Shown here: piece by piece, positions 3,976-38,579 of the stretch | Numbering within the stretch: position 1 is the first letter of the stretch | How the letters are laid out: each line of letters begins with the position of its first letter | NCBI RefSeq assembly: GCF_002288185.1 | Contig: NZ_CP016776.1 | Location: forward strand, 558,001-622,000 | DNA from: Candidatus Planktophila vernalis | Lineage (GTDB): Bacteria > Actinomycetota > Actinomycetes > Nanopelagicales > Nanopelagicaceae | Reading direction: 5' to 3' | DNA length: 64,000 nt | The notes under the pieces: generated by a model | Database searches by the model: none | What the model was told of the DNA's origin: nothing | The model's input: the letters and a program-made list of their open reading frames with translations, nothing else | Made by a program: the position numbers and the translations under genes

Positions 3976-5766
3976 TTACTTTGTGAAGAGCTGGTCAATC
4001 TCCTTTGCGAATTCCTTCGCAACGACGTGTCGCTTGATTGAGAGTTTCTGAGTTAAGTGCCCACCAGCGATTGTGAAATCTGTTGTAAGAATTGTGAACT
4101 TACGGATTGATTCCGCCTTGCTCACTGCCTTATTTGCATCATCAACTGCAGTTTGGATAACAGCAATCAAATCAGGGTCATTAGCAAGGTCGGCCATTGA
4201 AGCACCTTCCTTCTTGTGATTTGTTACCCAACCCTTAAGTGAATCCTGGTCAATAGTTACAAGTGCGGCAATGAATGGTTGATTATCGCCAACTACCAAG
4301 CACTGGCTCACTAGTGGATGTGCACGCAGGCGATCTTCTAGAACAGCAGGGGCAACGTTTTTTCCACCTGCAGTAACAATAAGTTCCTTTTTGCGGCCGA
4401 CAATGTACAGGAAGCCTTCATCATCGAGCTTTCCTAAGTCACCTGACTTAAACCAACCTTCAGAGTCAAATACTTCAGCGTTTGCAGCATCGTTTTGCCA
4501 GTATCCGCGCATAACAATTGCGCCACGGATAAGAACTTCGCCATCTTCAGCAATCTTGATTGAAGTGCCTGGGATTGGACGTCCAACAGAACCAACGCGG
4601 TGTGCACCAGTTAAGTTCAAAGTCGCACCAGCAGTTGTTTCAGTTAAACCGTAGCCTTCTAAAATTGTTACGCCAGCACCACGATAGAAGTGGCCTAAAC
4701 GCACACCTAGCGGTGCACCACCGGAGATTGCAGCTTCAACGCGTCCACCCATACCCGCGCGAATCTTTGAGTAGACCAACTTGTCAAAGAGTCCATGCTT
4801 GAGTTTAAGGACAGGAGAGATTCTCTTTTTATCCAATGCCTCTGAATAAGCGATTGCTACATCTGCTGCTTTTCTAAAAATCTTTCCCTTACCAGCAGCT
4901 TCAGCGCGAGCTTCAGCTCCGTTATAAATCTTTTCGAAAATACGTGGAACTGCCAAAACAAATGTTGGCTTAAAGGAAGCTAGATCAATTGGGAGACGTC
5001 CAAGTGGGTCACTGCAGTGCGCAAGGTGTAGACCTGAATTAATTGCACCAATTTGAACCATGCGACCAAAGACGTGAGCAACAGGTAGGAAAAGCAAAGT
5101 TGATCCGCCTGGTTTTAGGAATAGATCACTTGCACCCTGCACAACATTTCCGCATTCAGCTAAGAAGTTGCCATGTGTGAGTGAAACACCCTTTGGTTTT
5201 CCAGTTGTACCTGATGTGTAGATAAGTGTTGCCAAAGTATCTGGGCCAAGTGCTGTACGACGACGTTCAATTTCATCATCTGATACTTGAGCACCTGCAT
5301 TGCGAAGCACTGTAAGAACATCCTCAGTCATCACCCAGACATGCTTAGTGTGTGCAGGTTGAACTGTTTGGACTAATTCACGCAGTGCTGGAGTTTCAAC
5401 AATGATGCCAACAGTTGAAGAGTCGTTGAGAATCCAATCAATTTGCTCTGCAGATGATGTGTCATAAATTGGAACTACGACAGCTCCTGCATACCAAATC
5501 GCAAAATCAAGAATGGTCCACTCATAACGAGTACGGGCCATGATTGCCACACGATCACCGATTTGAATACCTGCAGCGATTAAGCCTTTGGCAGTTGCTC
5601 GCACCTCCTCGTCAACTTCACGGGCAGTGACACTTTGCCATCCATCGCCGAGTGGGCGAGACATGGTGATGCGCTCTGGCTCAAACCAGGCGCGTTCAGC
5701 AATCAGATTTGTCAGATTGCCAGCAGTAGCTGAAGGGACGAGGGCGGGTGTTGTGACTTCATTCAT
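3976..5766 (-). CDS. Long-chain fatty-acid-CoA ligase (AMP-binding, FadD15-like)
   Basis: A 596-residue ANL-superfamily enzyme that activates fatty acids to acyl-CoA through an acyl-adenylate. The P-loop-like motif TLIYTSGTTGKPKGVSLTHG, the A5 motif GYGLTETTAG, the A7/A8 block FKSGDLGKLDDEGFLYIVGR and the hinge KKELIVTAGGKN are all intact. The bacterial FadD15 type is full length at around 600 residues. It has no signal peptide, so it should be cytosolic or peripheral. It heads the fadD-kinase-regulator unit and diverges from the SRPBCC gene. The pairing with an SRPBCC protein and nearby pimB recalls the Rv2185c-Rv2188c region. The chain length preferred cannot be read from sequence. Confidence 0.88.
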   Translation of the reverse strand: MNEVTTPALVPSATAGNLTNLIAERAWFEPERITMSRPLGDGWQSVTAREVDEEVRATAKGLIAAGIQIGDRVAIMARTRYEWTILDFAIWYAGAVVVPIYDTSSAEQIDWILNDSSTVGIIVETPALRELVQTVQPAHTKHVWVMTEDVLTVLRNAGAQVSDDEIERRRTALGPDTLATLIYTSGTTGKPKGVSLTHGNFLAECGNVVQGASDLFLKPGGSTLLFLPVAHVFGRMVQIGAINSGLHLAHCSDPLGRLPIDLASFKPTFVLAVPRIFEKIYNGAEARAEAAGKGKIFRKAADVAIAYSEALDKKRISPVLKLKHGLFDKLVYSKIRAGMGGRVEAAISGGAPLGVRLGHFYRGAGVTILEGYGLTETTAGATLNLTGAHRVGSVGRPIPGTSIKIAEDGEVLIRGAIVMRGYWQNDAANAEVFDSEGWFKSGDLGKLDDEGFLYIVGRKKELIVTAGGKNVAPAVLEDRLRAHPLVSQCLVVGDNQPFIAALVTIDQDSLKGWVTNHKKEGASMADLANDPDLIAVIQTAVDDANKAVSKAESIRKFTILTTDFTIAGGHLTQKLSIKRHVVAKEFAKEIDQLFTK

Positions 5767-33578: not shown

Positions 33579-34667
33579 ATGAAGCACTCACCTTTACACG
33601 ATAAGCATCTAGCCCGAAATGCCAAGATGGCCGATTTCGGTGGTTGGCTGATGCCTATCGAGTATCCAGGGGCAGGAGTTCTAGCCGAGCATGGCGCGGT
33701 CCGCGAAAAGGTGGGCATTTTCGATGTCTCGCATTTAGGCAAAGCCAGTGTGACTGGAAAAGGTGCTCTTGAGTTCCTCAATTCAATGTTTACCAACGAC
33801 CTTGGTCGAATTGGAAATGGCTTTGCCCAATACACCCTGCTGTGTAATGAAAAGGGAGGGGTCATTGATGACCTTATTGCATATCGAAATAGTGAAGAAG
33901 ATTTCTTTTTAGTCCCAAATGCATCAAATACCACTGATGTTGTTGCAACTTTAAATGCTCATGTCCCAGCGGGAATTACTGTGACAAATCTACATACTGA
34001 GTATGCAGTAATTGCTGTGCAGGGCCCACTGGCACCAGCAGTGATGCAATCACTTGGGGTTAATACCGCCATTGATTACATGGCATTTGAAAAAGTAAGC
34101 ATCGGGGGAGCAGACGTAATTTTGTGCCGTACCGGTTACACAGGCGAACTCGGTTATGAACTTCTACCTAAGACTGCAGATGCCTCCAAAGTCTGGGATG
34201 CAATCGTTGCAGCGATAGAACCTGTGGGTGGATTAGTGTGTGGCCTCGGAGCGCGTGACACATTGCGCACTGAAATGGGTTACCCACTACACGGCCATGA
34301 ACTCTCACTAGAGATCACTCCGGTGGAAGCAAGTGCCACATGGGCCATTGGTTGGGACAAGAGTGGGTTTCTTGGCTCAGAGGTTTTGAAATCACAAAAG
34401 GCTCAAGGTGCAAAGCGCCGAAGCGTTGCAATTAAATCTTTGGACCGTGGAATTCCACGTGGTGGAATGAGTGTGAAAACAAAGGATGGCGCAGCCCTAG
34501 GTGAAGTGACGAGCGGGACCTTTTCCCCATCACTTAAAGTGGGGATAGGAATCGCGCTCCTTGATGCATCTGTGAAAATCGGTGATCAGTTAGTTATTGA
34601 TGTGCGAGGCCGGGACTCAATGGTGGAAGTTGTAAAACTTCCCTTTATGCCTTCACACGTTCGTTAA
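33579..34667 (+). CDS. gcvT: Aminomethyltransferase (glycine cleavage T protein)
   Basis: A 362-residue T protein. Conserved segments are PLHDKHLARNAKMADFGGWL, HGAVREKVGIFDVSHLGK, LTNDL-type FTNDLGRIGNG (folate and catalytic Asp region), TGYTGELGYEL, and GLGARDTLRTEMGYPLHGHE. It releases ammonia and 5,10-methylene-tetrahydrofolate from the aminomethyl group on lipoylated H protein. The gcvH and gcvP genes are not in the window. The last 23 bases overlap the convergent ECF S-component gene. Confidence 0.93.
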   Translation: MKHSPLHDKHLARNAKMADFGGWLMPIEYPGAGVLAEHGAVREKVGIFDVSHLGKASVTGKGALEFLNSMFTNDLGRIGNGFAQYTLLCNEKGGVIDDLIAYRNSEEDFFLVPNASNTTDVVATLNAHVPAGITVTNLHTEYAVIAVQGPLAPAVMQSLGVNTAIDYMAFEKVSIGGADVILCRTGYTGELGYELLPKTADASKVWDAIVAAIEPVGGLVCGLGARDTLRTEMGYPLHGHELSLEITPVEASATWAIGWDKSGFLGSEVLKSQKAQGAKRRSVAIKSLDRGIPRGGMSVKTKDGAALGEVTSGTFSPSLKVGIGIALLDASVKIGDQLVIDVRGRDSMVEVVKLPFMPSHVR

Positions 34668-35448
34668 ATTCAATCGGCTCTAAAAATGCAGCGCGGGTCT
34701 TAGTTCTACGCAGCGCTGATAAAACAGCCTTACCTGAAAACACCAAGAGAATCGTCGTAAAGACTGCCCGGGGGATATCCCAGGCCATTGCTGTGGCAAA
34801 GTGAAAAGTGATGAAACGAGAGAGGTTTTCACTTATTGCGCCATTGGCGATGTAAGACAATTGTGTGTCAGCACCCAGCGCCCAAGGCCAAAACTGTAGA
34901 TCCATCAAGATTCCAAATACCTGTGCAGCGATGATGCCAAAGAAAATCAGAAGCAACATTTCTTTCCAGCCTCTAAGTTTTTTACCGCCAAGCATTCCTG
35001 CAGCCATTCCAATCCAAGCTGCTGCAAATGCTTGGTAACCCAGCCATGGACCAACACCACCGGTAAGTAGGGCTGAAACAAACATTGATGTAAGTCCCAA
35101 AATAAATCCAAAAGAGGGACCAAAGACACGAGCGCTCAGAATCAAAATAAACCACATGGGTTCAATTCCAACGGCTCCTGCACCTAGCGGGCGAAGAGCT
35201 GCAATGAGTGCCGATAAAACACCTAGGAGGGCAACTGATTTTGCATCTAACGCTGAGTTAGAAATTTGAACGATTACTAAAATGAATGCAACGGTGAGTG
35301 CTGCCCAAAAGAAAAGCTGCGTGCGTGGAAGTGATTGTCCATTATAGAAAAATGGCCAGAGAAATCCAGCAGCAGAAATCAAGGAAGCTAATGCAAGTAC
35401 TGATGTACCAATGGGAGAAAATCTCACAACATCATTAGTGCGCATCAT
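34645..35448 (-). CDS. ECF transporter S component, probable cobalamin/corrinoid binder
   Basis: A 267-residue membrane protein with about six or seven helices and short loops, as expected for the substrate-binding S component of an energy-coupling-factor transporter. A glycine-rich LRPLGAGAVGIEPMWFILIL segment and the helix end AFAAAWIGMAAGMLG are typical of the group seen beside EcfA/EcfT in Streptomyces SCO2321-2325-like loci. The operon is preceded by a cobalamin riboswitch, which makes vitamin B12 or a precursor the best substrate guess. ATG 35448 overlaps the ATPase stop by ATGA. The 3' end overlaps gcvT by 23 bases. Confidence 0.8.
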   Translation of the reverse strand: MMRTNDVVRFSPIGTSVLALASLISAAGFLWPFFYNGQSLPRTQLFFWAALTVAFILVIVQISNSALDAKSVALLGVLSALIAALRPLGAGAVGIEPMWFILILSARVFGPSFGFILGLTSMFVSALLTGGVGPWLGYQAFAAAWIGMAAGMLGGKKLRGWKEMLLLIFFGIIAAQVFGILMDLQFWPWALGADTQLSYIANGAISENLSRFITFHFATAMAWDIPRAVFTTILLVFSGKAVLSALRRTKTRAAFLEPIEFNERVKA

Positions 35449-37052
35449 TTATCCGCCTCAATAGCTCGGACCACATCGGCCACCGTTAACCAAGGTTGCG
35501 GCGCCATGATCTTTGAAACTTGCGGTGCAAAAGCTGGAGAAGATAGGAGAACATCAATGGTTGGTCCATCTGCAACGATGTCACCATCTGCAACAAAGAT
35601 TGTTCGGGTGGCTAATTCAGCTACTAACTCAACATCGTGGGTAGCGATAATGACGCTTCGATTAAAGACTCGAGCAAAATCAATAAGCATCTTGGTCAAT
35701 ACTCGTTTGGCCTGATAATCCAAACCTCGAGTTGGCTCATCCAGGATAAGAAGGCGCGGATTAGCCGATAGAACCACGCTCAAAGCTAAACCTAAGCGCT
35801 GTCCTTCAGAGAGATCGCGGGGATGGGTATGGGTCGAAATTCCAGGAACAAGTTGGGAAAGAAGTGTGAAAGTTGTCCCAGCATCAATTTGATTATCTGA
35901 ATCGGCTTGCTTGCACTCTTCAGCAACACTTTGCCCATAGAGCAGATCACTTGGCTCTTGTGGAATATAGCCAACGTTTTCTCGCCTTTGCTTACTGTGC
36001 AGTTTCTGCGAATCAATACCGTTCACGATTACTTGACCAGCTGCGTTATCGCTTACCCCAGCAATGGCACGTAGCAGTGAGCTCTTGCCGGCTCCGTTGC
36101 GACCCATAATCGCAACAATCTCATTTTCATAGATAGTTGCTGAAAGAGAATTCACTGCATTCTTGCCACTATAGGAAATAGTGAGGTCTTTAATGTTTAC
36201 ACATGGCTTGGAAGAGATACTCGCGGTTTCTTGTTGAGTGACTTCGTGTGAGTCTCTAAACTCTTGCGTCATTCGGCGCATTTCGCGAACAGAAACACCA
36301 ATCTCTTTTAACCCGAGTGTTCTCGCCAACTCAACTATTGGTGGGGCAATGGGGGAGTTCATCAGGATTTCTTCAGGGGTTCCAACAACGGCAGTTCCTG
36401 CACCATTAATGTGAACAATGCGATCAGCAAACTGAATTACTCGCTCTAACTTATGTTCTGCGATAACAACTGTCAGGCTCAAATCGTGGACTAGGCGGTG
36501 AAGAATTGAGAGCACTTCTTCTGCAGCAATTGGATCGAGTGCACTTGTTGGTTCATCTAGAACTAAGACTTTTGGATGGGCAACCAAGGCACTTGCTATA
36601 GCAACGCGTTGTTGTTCTCCTCCACTTAATGTTGCAATCGTGCGATTTCGAAGGGCAGCCAATGACATTAAATCCAATACTTCTTCCACGCGCTTTCGCA
36701 TAGTTTCATTGGAAAGATTTAAGGCCTCCATGCCAAATACGAGTTCTTCTTCAACCGTATCTGCCACAAAGCCATTAATGGGGTTTTGTCCCACAATTCC
36801 AATCAAATGCGCCAGGCCACCAGGCTTTACTTCTGCAGTTGATATTCCATCTACTTCAATACTTCCAGCCAAGATGCCGCCGGTGTGGTGGGGAACAAGG
36901 CCATTGATGAGGCGTAGCAATGATGATTTACCTGAACCTGTTGGTCCAATAACTAGAACTAACTCTCCTTCAGCGATTTGAAGGTTGAGATCTTCAATAA
37001 CTGTTGTTGTGGAGTTTGGGTAGATAAGTGAAACGTTAGAAAACTTAATCAT
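35445..37052 (-). CDS. ECF transporter ATPase, two fused ABC domains
   Basis: A 535-residue protein with two complete nucleotide-binding domains. Domain 1: Walker A VIGPTGSGKSSLLRLING, signature TLSGGEQQRVAIASAL, Walker B VLVLDEPTSALDP. Domain 2: Walker A IMGRNGAGKSSLLRAIAG, signature DLSEGQRLGLALSV (SEGQ in place of SGGQ) and Walker B LLILDEPTRGLDY. This is an EcfA-EcfA' fusion that drives the T and S components. Start ATG 37052 overlaps the ecfT stop by four bases, so the chain EcfT-EcfA-S is translationally coupled. Confidence 0.92.
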   Translation of the reverse strand: MIKFSNVSLIYPNSTTTVIEDLNLQIAEGELVLVIGPTGSGKSSLLRLINGLVPHHTGGILAGSIEVDGISTAEVKPGGLAHLIGIVGQNPINGFVADTVEEELVFGMEALNLSNETMRKRVEEVLDLMSLAALRNRTIATLSGGEQQRVAIASALVAHPKVLVLDEPTSALDPIAAEEVLSILHRLVHDLSLTVVIAEHKLERVIQFADRIVHINGAGTAVVGTPEEILMNSPIAPPIVELARTLGLKEIGVSVREMRRMTQEFRDSHEVTQQETASISSKPCVNIKDLTISYSGKNAVNSLSATIYENEIVAIMGRNGAGKSSLLRAIAGVSDNAAGQVIVNGIDSQKLHSKQRRENVGYIPQEPSDLLYGQSVAEECKQADSDNQIDAGTTFTLLSQLVPGISTHTHPRDLSEGQRLGLALSVVLSANPRLLILDEPTRGLDYQAKRVLTKMLIDFARVFNRSVIIATHDVELVAELATRTIFVADGDIVADGPTIDVLLSSPAFAPQVSKIMAPQPWLTVADVVRAIEADK

Positions 37053-37795
37053 GAAAGACCCACAACCGCTAAGCCGGCAATGACAACGGCCACATCAATT
37101 CGTGCCCATTTGATCGGGCGATACTTAGATCTCTTTTTGCTAATTCCGTACCCACGTGAATCCATGGCTGCAGCTAAATCAAGTGATCTAGCTAAGGACT
37201 CTTCAAGTAATGGAAGAGCAATACGTTTGAAGGATTTAACCCCGTGGGTCTTCTGACCACGCAAACGCTGTGCCATACGAATACGAGAGACAGCTGAAAC
37301 TAATTGTGGAAGCACTGAAGTGGCAATAACAACGCTAATTCCAAATTCATAGACATAGACAGGCAAAACGCGCAGCAAGCGGTGTGGACTTGTCAGTGAT
37401 GCAGCTGCGCCAAAAACCACAAGGATTGCGCAGATGATGATTCCTTCAGAAACCGATGAAGTTAAGCGCTCTAAGGTCACGGCGCCACCAATTCGAATAC
37501 CGGGCATCCAACTAGGCAGTGGCAGACGAGGGATAGTGAAAAGGGTTGTTCCTGGGATTGGAACACCAATGAGCACGCCAATAATCGCTCGAATTGAGAT
37601 GATCCAAAGGGATAGCTTCAAAGTTGCGTTAAATGATCGTCCCCATGGGGCGTCATCTCGTTGCGTAAAGACAATCACTGACATAACACCCACTGCCGCG
37701 ATGGCAAAGACTGGAGAGTTCACTCGGGTTATTGCAAAGGCAACGGCCCCCGAGAAAATCCACCACGTCAGTGGGTGAAATGAAAGTTTTTTCAT
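37049..37795 (-). CDS. ECF transporter transmembrane T component
   Basis: A 248-residue EcfT (CbiQ-like) protein with about five helices and the paired cytoplasmic coupling motifs expected for contact with the ATPases: RIRMAQRLRGQKTHG and AMDSRGYGISKKRS (A-R-G and S-R-G type elements). It anchors the module in the membrane. It lies 7 nt after the secreted SCO2322-like gene and is coupled to the fused ATPase gene. Confidence 0.88.
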   Translation of the reverse strand: MKKLSFHPLTWWIFSGAVAFAITRVNSPVFAIAAVGVMSVIVFTQRDDAPWGRSFNATLKLSLWIISIRAIIGVLIGVPIPGTTLFTIPRLPLPSWMPGIRIGGAVTLERLTSSVSEGIIICAILVVFGAAASLTSPHRLLRVLPVYVYEFGISVVIATSVLPQLVSAVSRIRMAQRLRGQKTHGVKSFKRIALPLLEESLARSLDLAAAMDSRGYGISKKRSKYRPIKWARIDVAVVIAGLAVVGLS

Positions 37796-37802
37796 TAAGG
37801 AA

Positions 37803-38336
37803 TTACTTGGTCTTAATCAAAGATTTAGGTGTTGGGATTTCAACACCGCATTCCTTTGCTGGGTAGCCACCAAGGCCGCAGATCAAGCCAGAGGAAGCAG
37901 CACGGATCTTTGTGACCTGACCAAGAACATCAATTCCCTGTGAAGTTTTTGCCGTGCGAACGCAGGTAGTGATTGTTTTCTTTGGAGATTCACCTTTGGG
38001 TGCCCAGGCTTTTGAACCAAACTCAATGACTAGTCCGATTCGCTTAGTGTCTGTGTCACCTTTAACACCAGCACAGATCTTTGCAAAGCTAGGTTTTACT
38101 GCGGGCGCAAGAGAAGGGATATCGTCAGCGCCAAATACAAATGACCAACCTTCAACTGCGCCATCTGCGATATCAACTGTCGGTCCTGTCATTGCAGCAG
38201 TCCACTTTGTTGCACCTGGAGCTGCTTGGAAATAACCCCAGTAGCGCCAGCCTTTGCCAGCAGCCTGTGATTGGGGGATAAAGAGAACTGATGTGGAAAG
38301 AATGAGTAGTGAAATAAGTAATGCTTTAATCTTCAT
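37803..38336 (-). CDS. SCO2322-family secreted protein of the ECF operon
   Basis: A 177-residue exported protein. Start ATG 38336 gives a clean signal peptide (MKIKALLISLLILSTSVLFI, cleavage near SQA); a longer frame to 38438 would run through the riboswitch hairpin. The mature part contains RYWGYFQAAPGATKW, ADGAVEGWSFVFG and a C-terminal Cys-containing GLICGLGGYPAKECG, with four Cys likely in disulfides. This matches my memory of the SCO2322 family found first in the same ECF operon of Streptomyces. No lipobox or carboxyl anchor is visible. An accessory capture role for the transporter is inferred from the operon only. Confidence 0.78.
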   Translation of the reverse strand: MKIKALLISLLILSTSVLFIPQSQAAGKGWRYWGYFQAAPGATKWTAAMTGPTVDIADGAVEGWSFVFGADDIPSLAPAVKPSFAKICAGVKGDTDTKRIGLVIEFGSKAWAPKGESPKKTITTCVRTAKTSQGIDVLGQVTKIRAASSGLICGLGGYPAKECGVEIPTPKSLIKTK

Positions 38337-38427
38337 TGCTGTGGGGCCTCTCGATTGTGAAAGAGTCTCACAGGGAGCAGTGCCGCGCGAATAAGAGATA
38401 AATAAAAATCTCAAAGACATGTGGACC

Positions 38428-38452
38428 ACACCCCGCAAACCTCGGCGGGTGT
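38428..38452 (-). promoter_or_regulatory. Hairpin between riboswitch and ORF, likely expression platform
   Basis: On the minus strand ACACCCGC (38452-38445) pairs with GCGGGGTGT (38436-38428), with one bulge. No T-run follows directly, so it may act on translation or as an antiterminator partner. About 90 nt of leader remain to the start at 38336. Confidence 0.45.
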
Positions 38453-38459
38453 TTGTCTA

Positions 38460-38579
38460 AAACCAATCATTAGGTAATCCGACTATACGGTTGCGGGTCA
38501 GCGTCGGAATTTCACCGAACTTCCCCTAATGAAGGGCGTATTAAGTTGTGTGCGTAGGAAAGCACATAGTGATTGGTTT
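38460..38579 (-). ncRNA. Cobalamin riboswitch upstream of the ECF operon
   Basis: Read on the minus strand. A perfect 10-bp P1 pairs 38579-38570 (AAACCAATCA) with 38469-38460 (TGATTGGTTT). Inside it are the conserved core pieces of cobalamin aptamers in order: GGGGAA (38526-38521), GGTGAAATTCC (38516-38506), GCTGACCCGCAACCGTA (38502-38486, the actinobacterial form of the CCCGCCACTGT block) and AGTCGGATTACC (38484-38473, B12-box-like). The element is compact at 120 nt. It should repress the SCO2322-like/EcfT/EcfA/S genes when cobalamin is plentiful. Confidence 0.88.

Follow-up and report, generated by a model that had tools for sequence, protein, structure and literature searches.

What does a secreted protein do in an operon that otherwise encodes an energy-coupling factor (ECF) importer? 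The question is raised by a stretch of 64,000 nucleotides from Candidatus Planktophila vernalis (contig NZ_CP016776.1, positions 558,001 to 622,000; hereafter the window), in which a cobalamin riboswitch is followed, on the minus strand, by the genes of an exported protein of the SCO2322 family, the transmembrane protein EcfT, a fused pair of EcfA ATPases, and an S component. We consider it probable that this operon encodes a feedback-controlled importer of corrinoids (vitamin B12), with the secreted protein, which we take to be related to the transcobalamin beta domain by circular permutation, serving as a putative exported catcher of the corrinoid or as a lid.

The SCO2322 domain is very likely a circular permutation

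Elsewhere in the phylum, the profile of the SCO2322 family (NF040672) has weak matches, through which we arrived at longer exported proteins encoded at the same position of the operon. Their domain contains the same two conserved halves as SCO2322 in the opposite order, which we call the natural order. A profile built from 13 such domains matches all nine SCO2322 proteins compared (L031-L039) as two pieces whose order is swapped. When the SCO2322 domain is rotated, the mean best single-domain score against this profile rises from 25.2 to 46.9 bits, with a gain in each of the 66 domains tested (of 72, six lacking the cut motif); the corresponding controls gave -2.9 bits for shuffled copies and -0.4 bits for reversed ones. 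Cuts between approximately residues 42 and 96 score high, a range that covers the linker. For the protein of the window, the best domain goes from 24.1 bits in the native order to 44.9 bits when rotated. The comparison of profiles gives the same picture: hhalign aligns the rotated SCO2322 domain with the natural-order domains at 99.5% over 101 columns, and the native one at 97.7% over 38.

The order of the pieces, the gain upon rotation and the profile-profile comparison make it very likely that the SCO2322 domain is a circular permutation relative to the natural-order domain. The protein would thus consist of a signal peptide followed by a permuted beta domain. In the literature searched, which was mostly open-access, we met no account of SCO2322 as a permuted domain of the transcobalamin kind, and its recognition as the circularly permuted form of a DUF4430-related domain looks new.

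Relation to DUF4430 and to the transcobalamin beta domain

According to a passage of PMC4350170, transcobalamin-type proteins carry DUF4430 towards their C-terminus. We compared the natural-order domains with DUF4430 domains of the same phylum (profile of 28 of the 30 loci, leaving out L157 and L163), and obtained 87% over 75 columns, with a score of 37.1 versus 15.1 for the best of 60 column shuffles. The strand order of the Pfam family (PF14478) is not that of SCO2322, whose halves are swapped relative to the natural-order relatives, and PF14478 has no match in the genome of the window. A single locus (L045) encodes the beta domain, EcfT, the ATPase, the S component, an alpha/alpha toroid protein and a match to PF14478. 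Similarly, contig C203 of genome G040 has a weak NF040672 match and a PF14478 match (2309-2497 and 4034-4207) less than 2 kb apart. In short flanks, a cobalamin riboswitch was found at one of the 20 DUF4430 loci scanned (of 30 loci).

In a realignment of the SCO2322 model with 925 chains, five reach a Z of 2; the top four are transcobalamin, three of them titled human, and the fifth is an unrelated deaminase. Residues 69-141 of the model align with 308-374 of 5np4 (Z 2.6-2.7; root-mean-square deviation 2.4-2.5; 59 residues). The match is weak, and we regard a transcobalamin-like fold as no more than likely for the modelled SCO2322 domain. According to its title, 5np4 is an isolated transcobalamin beta domain with bound cyanocobalamin; since a lone beta domain can thus bind B12, a version of the system without the toroid is plausible.

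The operon and its riboswitch

The features of the operon are listed in Table 1. EcfT, two ATPase domains and an S component, the parts that define an ECF importer, are encoded side by side. The spacing between successive genes is +7, -4 and -4 nt, and the four genes that the initial annotation had described as coupled can indeed be recognised both by their family matches and by this tight packing. The secreted protein likely starts at the ATG at 38336 (177 aa in total, including a signal peptide) rather than at the listed TTG at 38438, a start that would extend the gene into the hairpin downstream of the aptamer. At the other end of the operon (34645-34667), the end of the S component gene and a convergent gcvT gene share 23 bases.

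Table 1. Features of the probable corrinoid importer operon of Candidatus Planktophila vernalis (positions in the window; AdoCbl, adenosylcobalamin; pLDDT, predicted local distance difference test).
Feature	Position	Strand	Evidence
Outer 10-bp helix, 38570-38579 pairing with 38460-38469	38460..38579	minus	Read from the sequence
Cobalamin riboswitch aptamer, Rfam RF01689 (AdoCbl-II)	38467..38532	minus	41.2 bits (gathering 36.5), E 2e-6
Aptamer core GACCCGCAACCG	38488..38499	minus	Conserved across relatives
Hairpin downstream of the aptamer (ACACCCGC...GCGGGGTGT)	38428..38452	minus	Conserved; paired alignment columns between 176 and 200
Secreted protein of the SCO2322 family, 177 aa	37803..38336	minus	NF040672, 144.6 bits (curated cut-off 85); AlphaFold2 pLDDT 92.9
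EcfT transmembrane protein, CbiQ family	37049..37795	minus	PF02361 (CbiQ), 33.7 bits (cut-off 25)
Fused EcfA-EcfA ATPase	35445..37052	minus	PF00005 in two stretches
ECF S component, putative remote CbrT relative	34645..35448	minus	PF12822, 32.9 bits (cut-off 30.7); S-component fold

The cobalamin riboswitch that had been proposed upstream of the operon is confirmed by the covariance-model match to RF01689. This is the only site above the cut-off for RF01689 in the genome (150 of 172 first-look candidates scored), and no site exceeds that of RF00174; the RF00174 model gives 22.3 bits at the same aptamer, under its cut-off, and this is its single match in the whole genome at E up to 1. The conservation of the element was studied in an alignment of 50 sequences (49 of 80 loci and the window, after dropping five cut-off loci and near-copies). 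Among the 29 predicted pairs of the aptamer, 15 show compensatory changes. The exact core is present in 74 of the 75 relatives that have at least 400 nt upstream (from the best 80 of 545), and in the remaining one (L056) a single base is altered. We thus take the site as a real cobalamin riboswitch, whose response to cobalamin is predicted. The hairpin downstream of the aptamer is probably regulatory, and we take it to be P13-like.

The perfect 10-bp P1 helix of the initial annotation is present in the window but is not conserved: in a crude duplex test, only one of 76 sequences, the window itself, pairs above 95 of 100 shuffles. The helix that closes the aptamer across relatives is the inner one, TCATTAGG/CCTAATGA (38525-38532 with 38467-38474), in which several pairs have compensatory changes. 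On this comparison, the outer helix is either lineage-specific or a chance pairing. Elsewhere in the genome (C1:884613-884651), a sub-threshold match to RF01689 (21.1 bits) lies ca. 0.9 kb past the end of the match to NrdJ, and is probably due to chance.

Conservation of the operon in the order and in the phylum

We analysed the best 80 of at least 545 confirmed relatives. Most are titled as metagenome-assembled genomes of Actinobacteria; several are named Ca. Planktophila, Nanopelagicaceae or acI, and a few Bifidobacterium breve, Streptomyces griseus, Streptomycetaceae or Clavibacter. The order of the genes for EcfT, ATPase and S component (T-A-S) is kept in all the 64 relatives with at least 3600 nt downstream. 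In the other 16 the contig ends early, and the gene content is consistent so far as it is present. In the relatives examined, the secreted gene sits between the riboswitch and the gene encoding EcfT. A search of viral contigs gave 47 pattern matches, none of which is a relative.

Within the order, NF040672 has matches in 127 of 201 genomes. The near-complete genomes of the same family G306, G309 and G317 (g201) and G316 and G322 (g202) have no SCO2322 match, and another g201 genome (G419) has one. Across the phylum, matches occur in 44 of 296 genomes, 10 of them above the cut-off (including the genome of the window). From 49 listed places we took 20 regions (in 19 genomes), and in all of them T, A and S are encoded beside the secreted gene. 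An upstream cobalamin riboswitch, on the same strand as the operon, is found in 17 of these 20 operons. Eight of the 20 have a match at gathering level, but in L045 this match is on the opposite strand and that of the operon itself is weaker (26.9 bits); the other riboswitches are below gathering level (E up to 0.037). Four Rfam searches found no match to other families at the 20 operons, so none of them is preceded by a different riboswitch. A search of short flanks (1.5 kb, nine loci) had given no gathering-level match; longer flanks and a looser threshold revealed the riboswitches, with the toroid gene often lying between the riboswitch and the beta gene. Around one operon with two toroid proteins (L044, 4172-15898), there are four matches to RF00174 in 12 kb, one of them on the opposite strand to the other three.

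The initial annotation's cobalamin-controlled ECF importer with a secreted protein as regular partner is supported: neither of the outcomes named there as refuting it, a missing covariance-model match or another kind of riboswitch before such operons, occurred. The counts of 64 of 64 relatives and 20 of 20 regions of the phylum make it very improbable that the secreted protein merely shares the transcript without a related role, an idea favoured by the fact that we found no paper on SCO2322 in the literature searched: EcfT, EcfA and EcfS follow the secreted gene in every one of these loci (the reverse, operons without the secreted gene, being outside the search).

A corrinoid as the substrate

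When the profile of the S component is compared with solved structures, the top match is 6fnp, the CbrT complex (E 0.0014), and the next one has an E of 4.2. Its fold is that of S components, which occupy rows 1-23 of the Foldseek matches (best E 0.01) and reach a Z of up to 13.8 with VIA; BtuM with cyanocobalamin is also among the VIA rows (Z 8.8). Structures of CbiM are found among the fold matches, no search having been aimed at CbiM. The structure alignment for the S component included 49 of 65 S components, and the other structure alignments 66 of 80 loci. Together with the riboswitch, these results make a strong case from sequence for a corrinoid as the substrate, with transport as a prediction, and uptake of corrinoids by this operon is well supported.

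The substrate might instead be a corrinoid precursor or cobalt. EcfT belongs to the CbiQ (cobalt transport) family, and cobalamin riboswitches also control cobalt transporters, which would fit an operon importing cobalt. Import of a precursor such as cobinamide would fit the description, in part of PMC5997447, of the ECF-CbrT of Lactobacillus delbrueckii, which imports cobalamin and a precursor. We find both options rather improbable, since the best solved match of the S component is CbrT itself and since acI is reported, in a passage of PMC5301498, to lack cobalamin biosynthesis, which would leave little use for cobalt alone.

The genome has an apparent demand for the vitamin. It encodes the AdoCbl-dependent ribonucleotide reductase NrdJ (611.6 bits, cut-off 400) and a PduO-type adenosyltransferase (205 bits). 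At C1:946590, the gene of a protein with a B12-binding domain adjoins MttB-like and MetF-like reading frames (neighbours identified by reading), which suggests a corrinoid methyltransferase pathway. BtuCDF is an ABC importer of B12 with an extracytoplasmic binder. It is absent here: the FecCD (BtuC-type) permease has no match in the genome, in a search that was positive in 13 of the 14 control genomes.

A toroid partner in other Actinomycetota

The beta domain does not always stand alone. An exported alpha/alpha toroid protein is encoded next to the beta gene in several operons, including those that we call Streptomyces-like (group f3/g3, with large genomes, a label we assume from the SCO gene name). 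In G134, G284 and G102 the toroid match is elsewhere in the genome. L043 (6396-9281) and L050 (8119-10575) encode large exported proteins in which a toroid is fused to cell-wall-binding CWB2 repeats and to one or two beta domains. Among 14 genomes searched with a toroid profile, eight have matches; there are none in the genome of the window, in four relatives (reached via L053, L073, L087 and L099) or in G062. Searches of the PDB with the toroid found mainly squalene and other terpene cyclases and complement proteins, with no transcobalamin among the 60 of 97 matches listed, and searches with single proteins of L043 and L042 likewise found no transcobalamin. In the toroids of two Streptomyces-like operons, L031 (10839-12230) and L032 (8049-9404), the halves too are in swapped order compared with the other toroids of these operons: on rotation the best score of the first goes up from 106.5 to 156.6 bits and that of the second from 111.8 to 159.1 bits. 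Both partners of the split pair thus seem permuted.

The toroid and beta domain of these relatives would make up a split transcobalamin. This allows a tentative history, slightly less likely than not, in which a split transcobalamin serves the ECF importer of Actinomycetota, the SCO2322 branch permuted both halves, and the freshwater lineage lost the toroid, leaving the lone permuted beta domain as an extracytoplasmic corrinoid-binding subunit.

Evidence against a transcobalamin-like partner

Several observations weigh against the operon being a corrinoid importer with a permuted transcobalamin-like partner. At the level of the domain, the second SCO2322 piece is weak alone (independent E-values of 0.0017 to 0.2), the first being at 1e-7 or better. 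The summed score of the window protein is nearly equal in the two orders (43.0 bits native versus 46.5 rotated), its gain being in one continuous match; such a flat sum is expected if the same two halves are simply re-ordered. Against DUF4430, the rotated SCO2322 domain reaches just 17% (25.1 versus 16.4 in shuffles), with similar values at many cut points, and the native one 5.5%, with two of 60 shuffles equally good. Since the rotated score is low and insensitive to the cut point, the link to DUF4430 depends on the natural-order relatives. At E up to 10, neither SCO2322 nor any of the 13 natural-order domains has a Pfam match. The structural resemblance to transcobalamin is weak, extends over half of the model and is on a level with that to an unrelated deaminase (Z 2.5), although a match to half of the domain is what a permutation would predict. 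Foldseek finds nothing significant for the secreted protein (best E 1.2), and PDB sequence searches with the secreted domains give chance-like matches alone, with no transcobalamin.

At the level of the operon, there is no SCO2322 match in 74 of the 201 genomes of the order, incomplete ones included, or in 40 of 108 among the better genomes. Three of the 20 operons of the phylum (L135, L136 and L138, all of one genus group) have no riboswitch at E up to 1. All loci were retrieved via the secreted protein, and therefore T-A-S operons without the secreted gene were outside the search. CbrT is absent among the VIA rows listed for the S component, and the toroid profile finds no match in the genome of the window.

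Some of these points would be explained if the operon were the B12 importer published for acI, and the secreted protein an assembly factor or a structural lid rather than a corrinoid binder, its likeness to transcobalamin reflecting a shared fold or chance. The weak, partial and tied structural match is consistent with this, as are the lack of a toroid partner in the genome of the window and four relatives and the absence of a C-terminal anchor in the window protein (a C-terminal hydrophobic segment occurs in only nine of 79 relatives). We nevertheless find it unlikely, given that the relatives examined have the secreted gene after the riboswitch and before the gene of EcfT, that operons elsewhere pair it with a toroid protein, and that natural-order relatives and DUF4430 reach 87%.

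A model for corrinoid uptake

Cobalamin riboswitches generally shut the message off when cobalamin is plentiful. In the model we favour, a corrinoid importer with a permuted beta domain as exported partner, plentiful cobalamin would act in this way on the message of the operon. When the operon is expressed, the exported protein would catch the corrinoid outside the membrane, or act as a lid on the S component, and hand the corrinoid to the S component, which would carry it inward at the cost of ATP. The imported vitamin would be adenosylated by PduO and then used by NrdJ, and it probably also feeds the corrinoid methyltransferase system. Many other Actinomycetota may complete a transcobalamin-like pair with a further exported protein, the alpha/alpha toroid, as its other half, whereas the lineage of the window appears to manage without it.

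Relation to known systems

Two elements of the initial annotation were presented as new, the assignment of the transporter to cobalamin and the secreted partner of an ECF importer. Both claims fall in the light of passages of two papers. Kang et al. 2017 (PMC5301498) assigned a riboswitch-led ECF module of acI to cobalamin, and in Burroughs et al. 2007 (PMC1796856) the scavenging of B12 or its precursors was predicted for secreted transcobalamin-like domains whose genes accompany those of CbiO and CbiQ. To judge by how the relatives are named, the acI module is from the same lineage as the window; it is very likely the same operon, although the secreted protein goes unmentioned in those passages of PMC5301498. 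Part of Hamilton et al. 2017 (PMC5574706) predicts AdoCbl auxotrophy for acI-B and describes a putative, unexpressed cobalamin transporter in acI-A.

The transcobalamin-type SLBB proteins, as described in passages of PMC1796856, are secreted like SCO2322, encoded with CbiO and CbiQ, and often accompanied by an alpha/alpha toroid; their clade is named there for low-GC Gram-positives, planctomycetes and, less often, euryarchaea. SCO2322 differs in its swapped halves, in being missed by the Pfam model and, in the genome of the window, in the lack of a toroid. Similarly, the ECF-CbrT of L. delbrueckii is an ECF importer of cobalamin like that of the window, with a distantly similar S component, but its ECF module is common to eight predicted S components, and a secreted partner goes unmentioned in the part of PMC5997447 concerned. 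The SCO2322 model can be aligned, weakly and over half of its extent, with the human transcobalamin beta domain, and relatives of SCO2322 add the toroid; the human protein, in contrast, is one fused chain with a different strand order. Relative to BtuCDF, the difference of the window's genome is the missing FecCD permease.

The finding supplies a testable function for the SCO2322 family, which had none, and the operon suggests a route by which the B12-dependent ribonucleotide reductase is supplied. If true, it would tie the human B12 carriers to a partner of an ECF importer that Pfam misses because its halves are swapped. The likeness of the secreted protein to a re-ordered piece of the B12 carrier of human blood suggests how such freshwater bacteria catch the vitamin.

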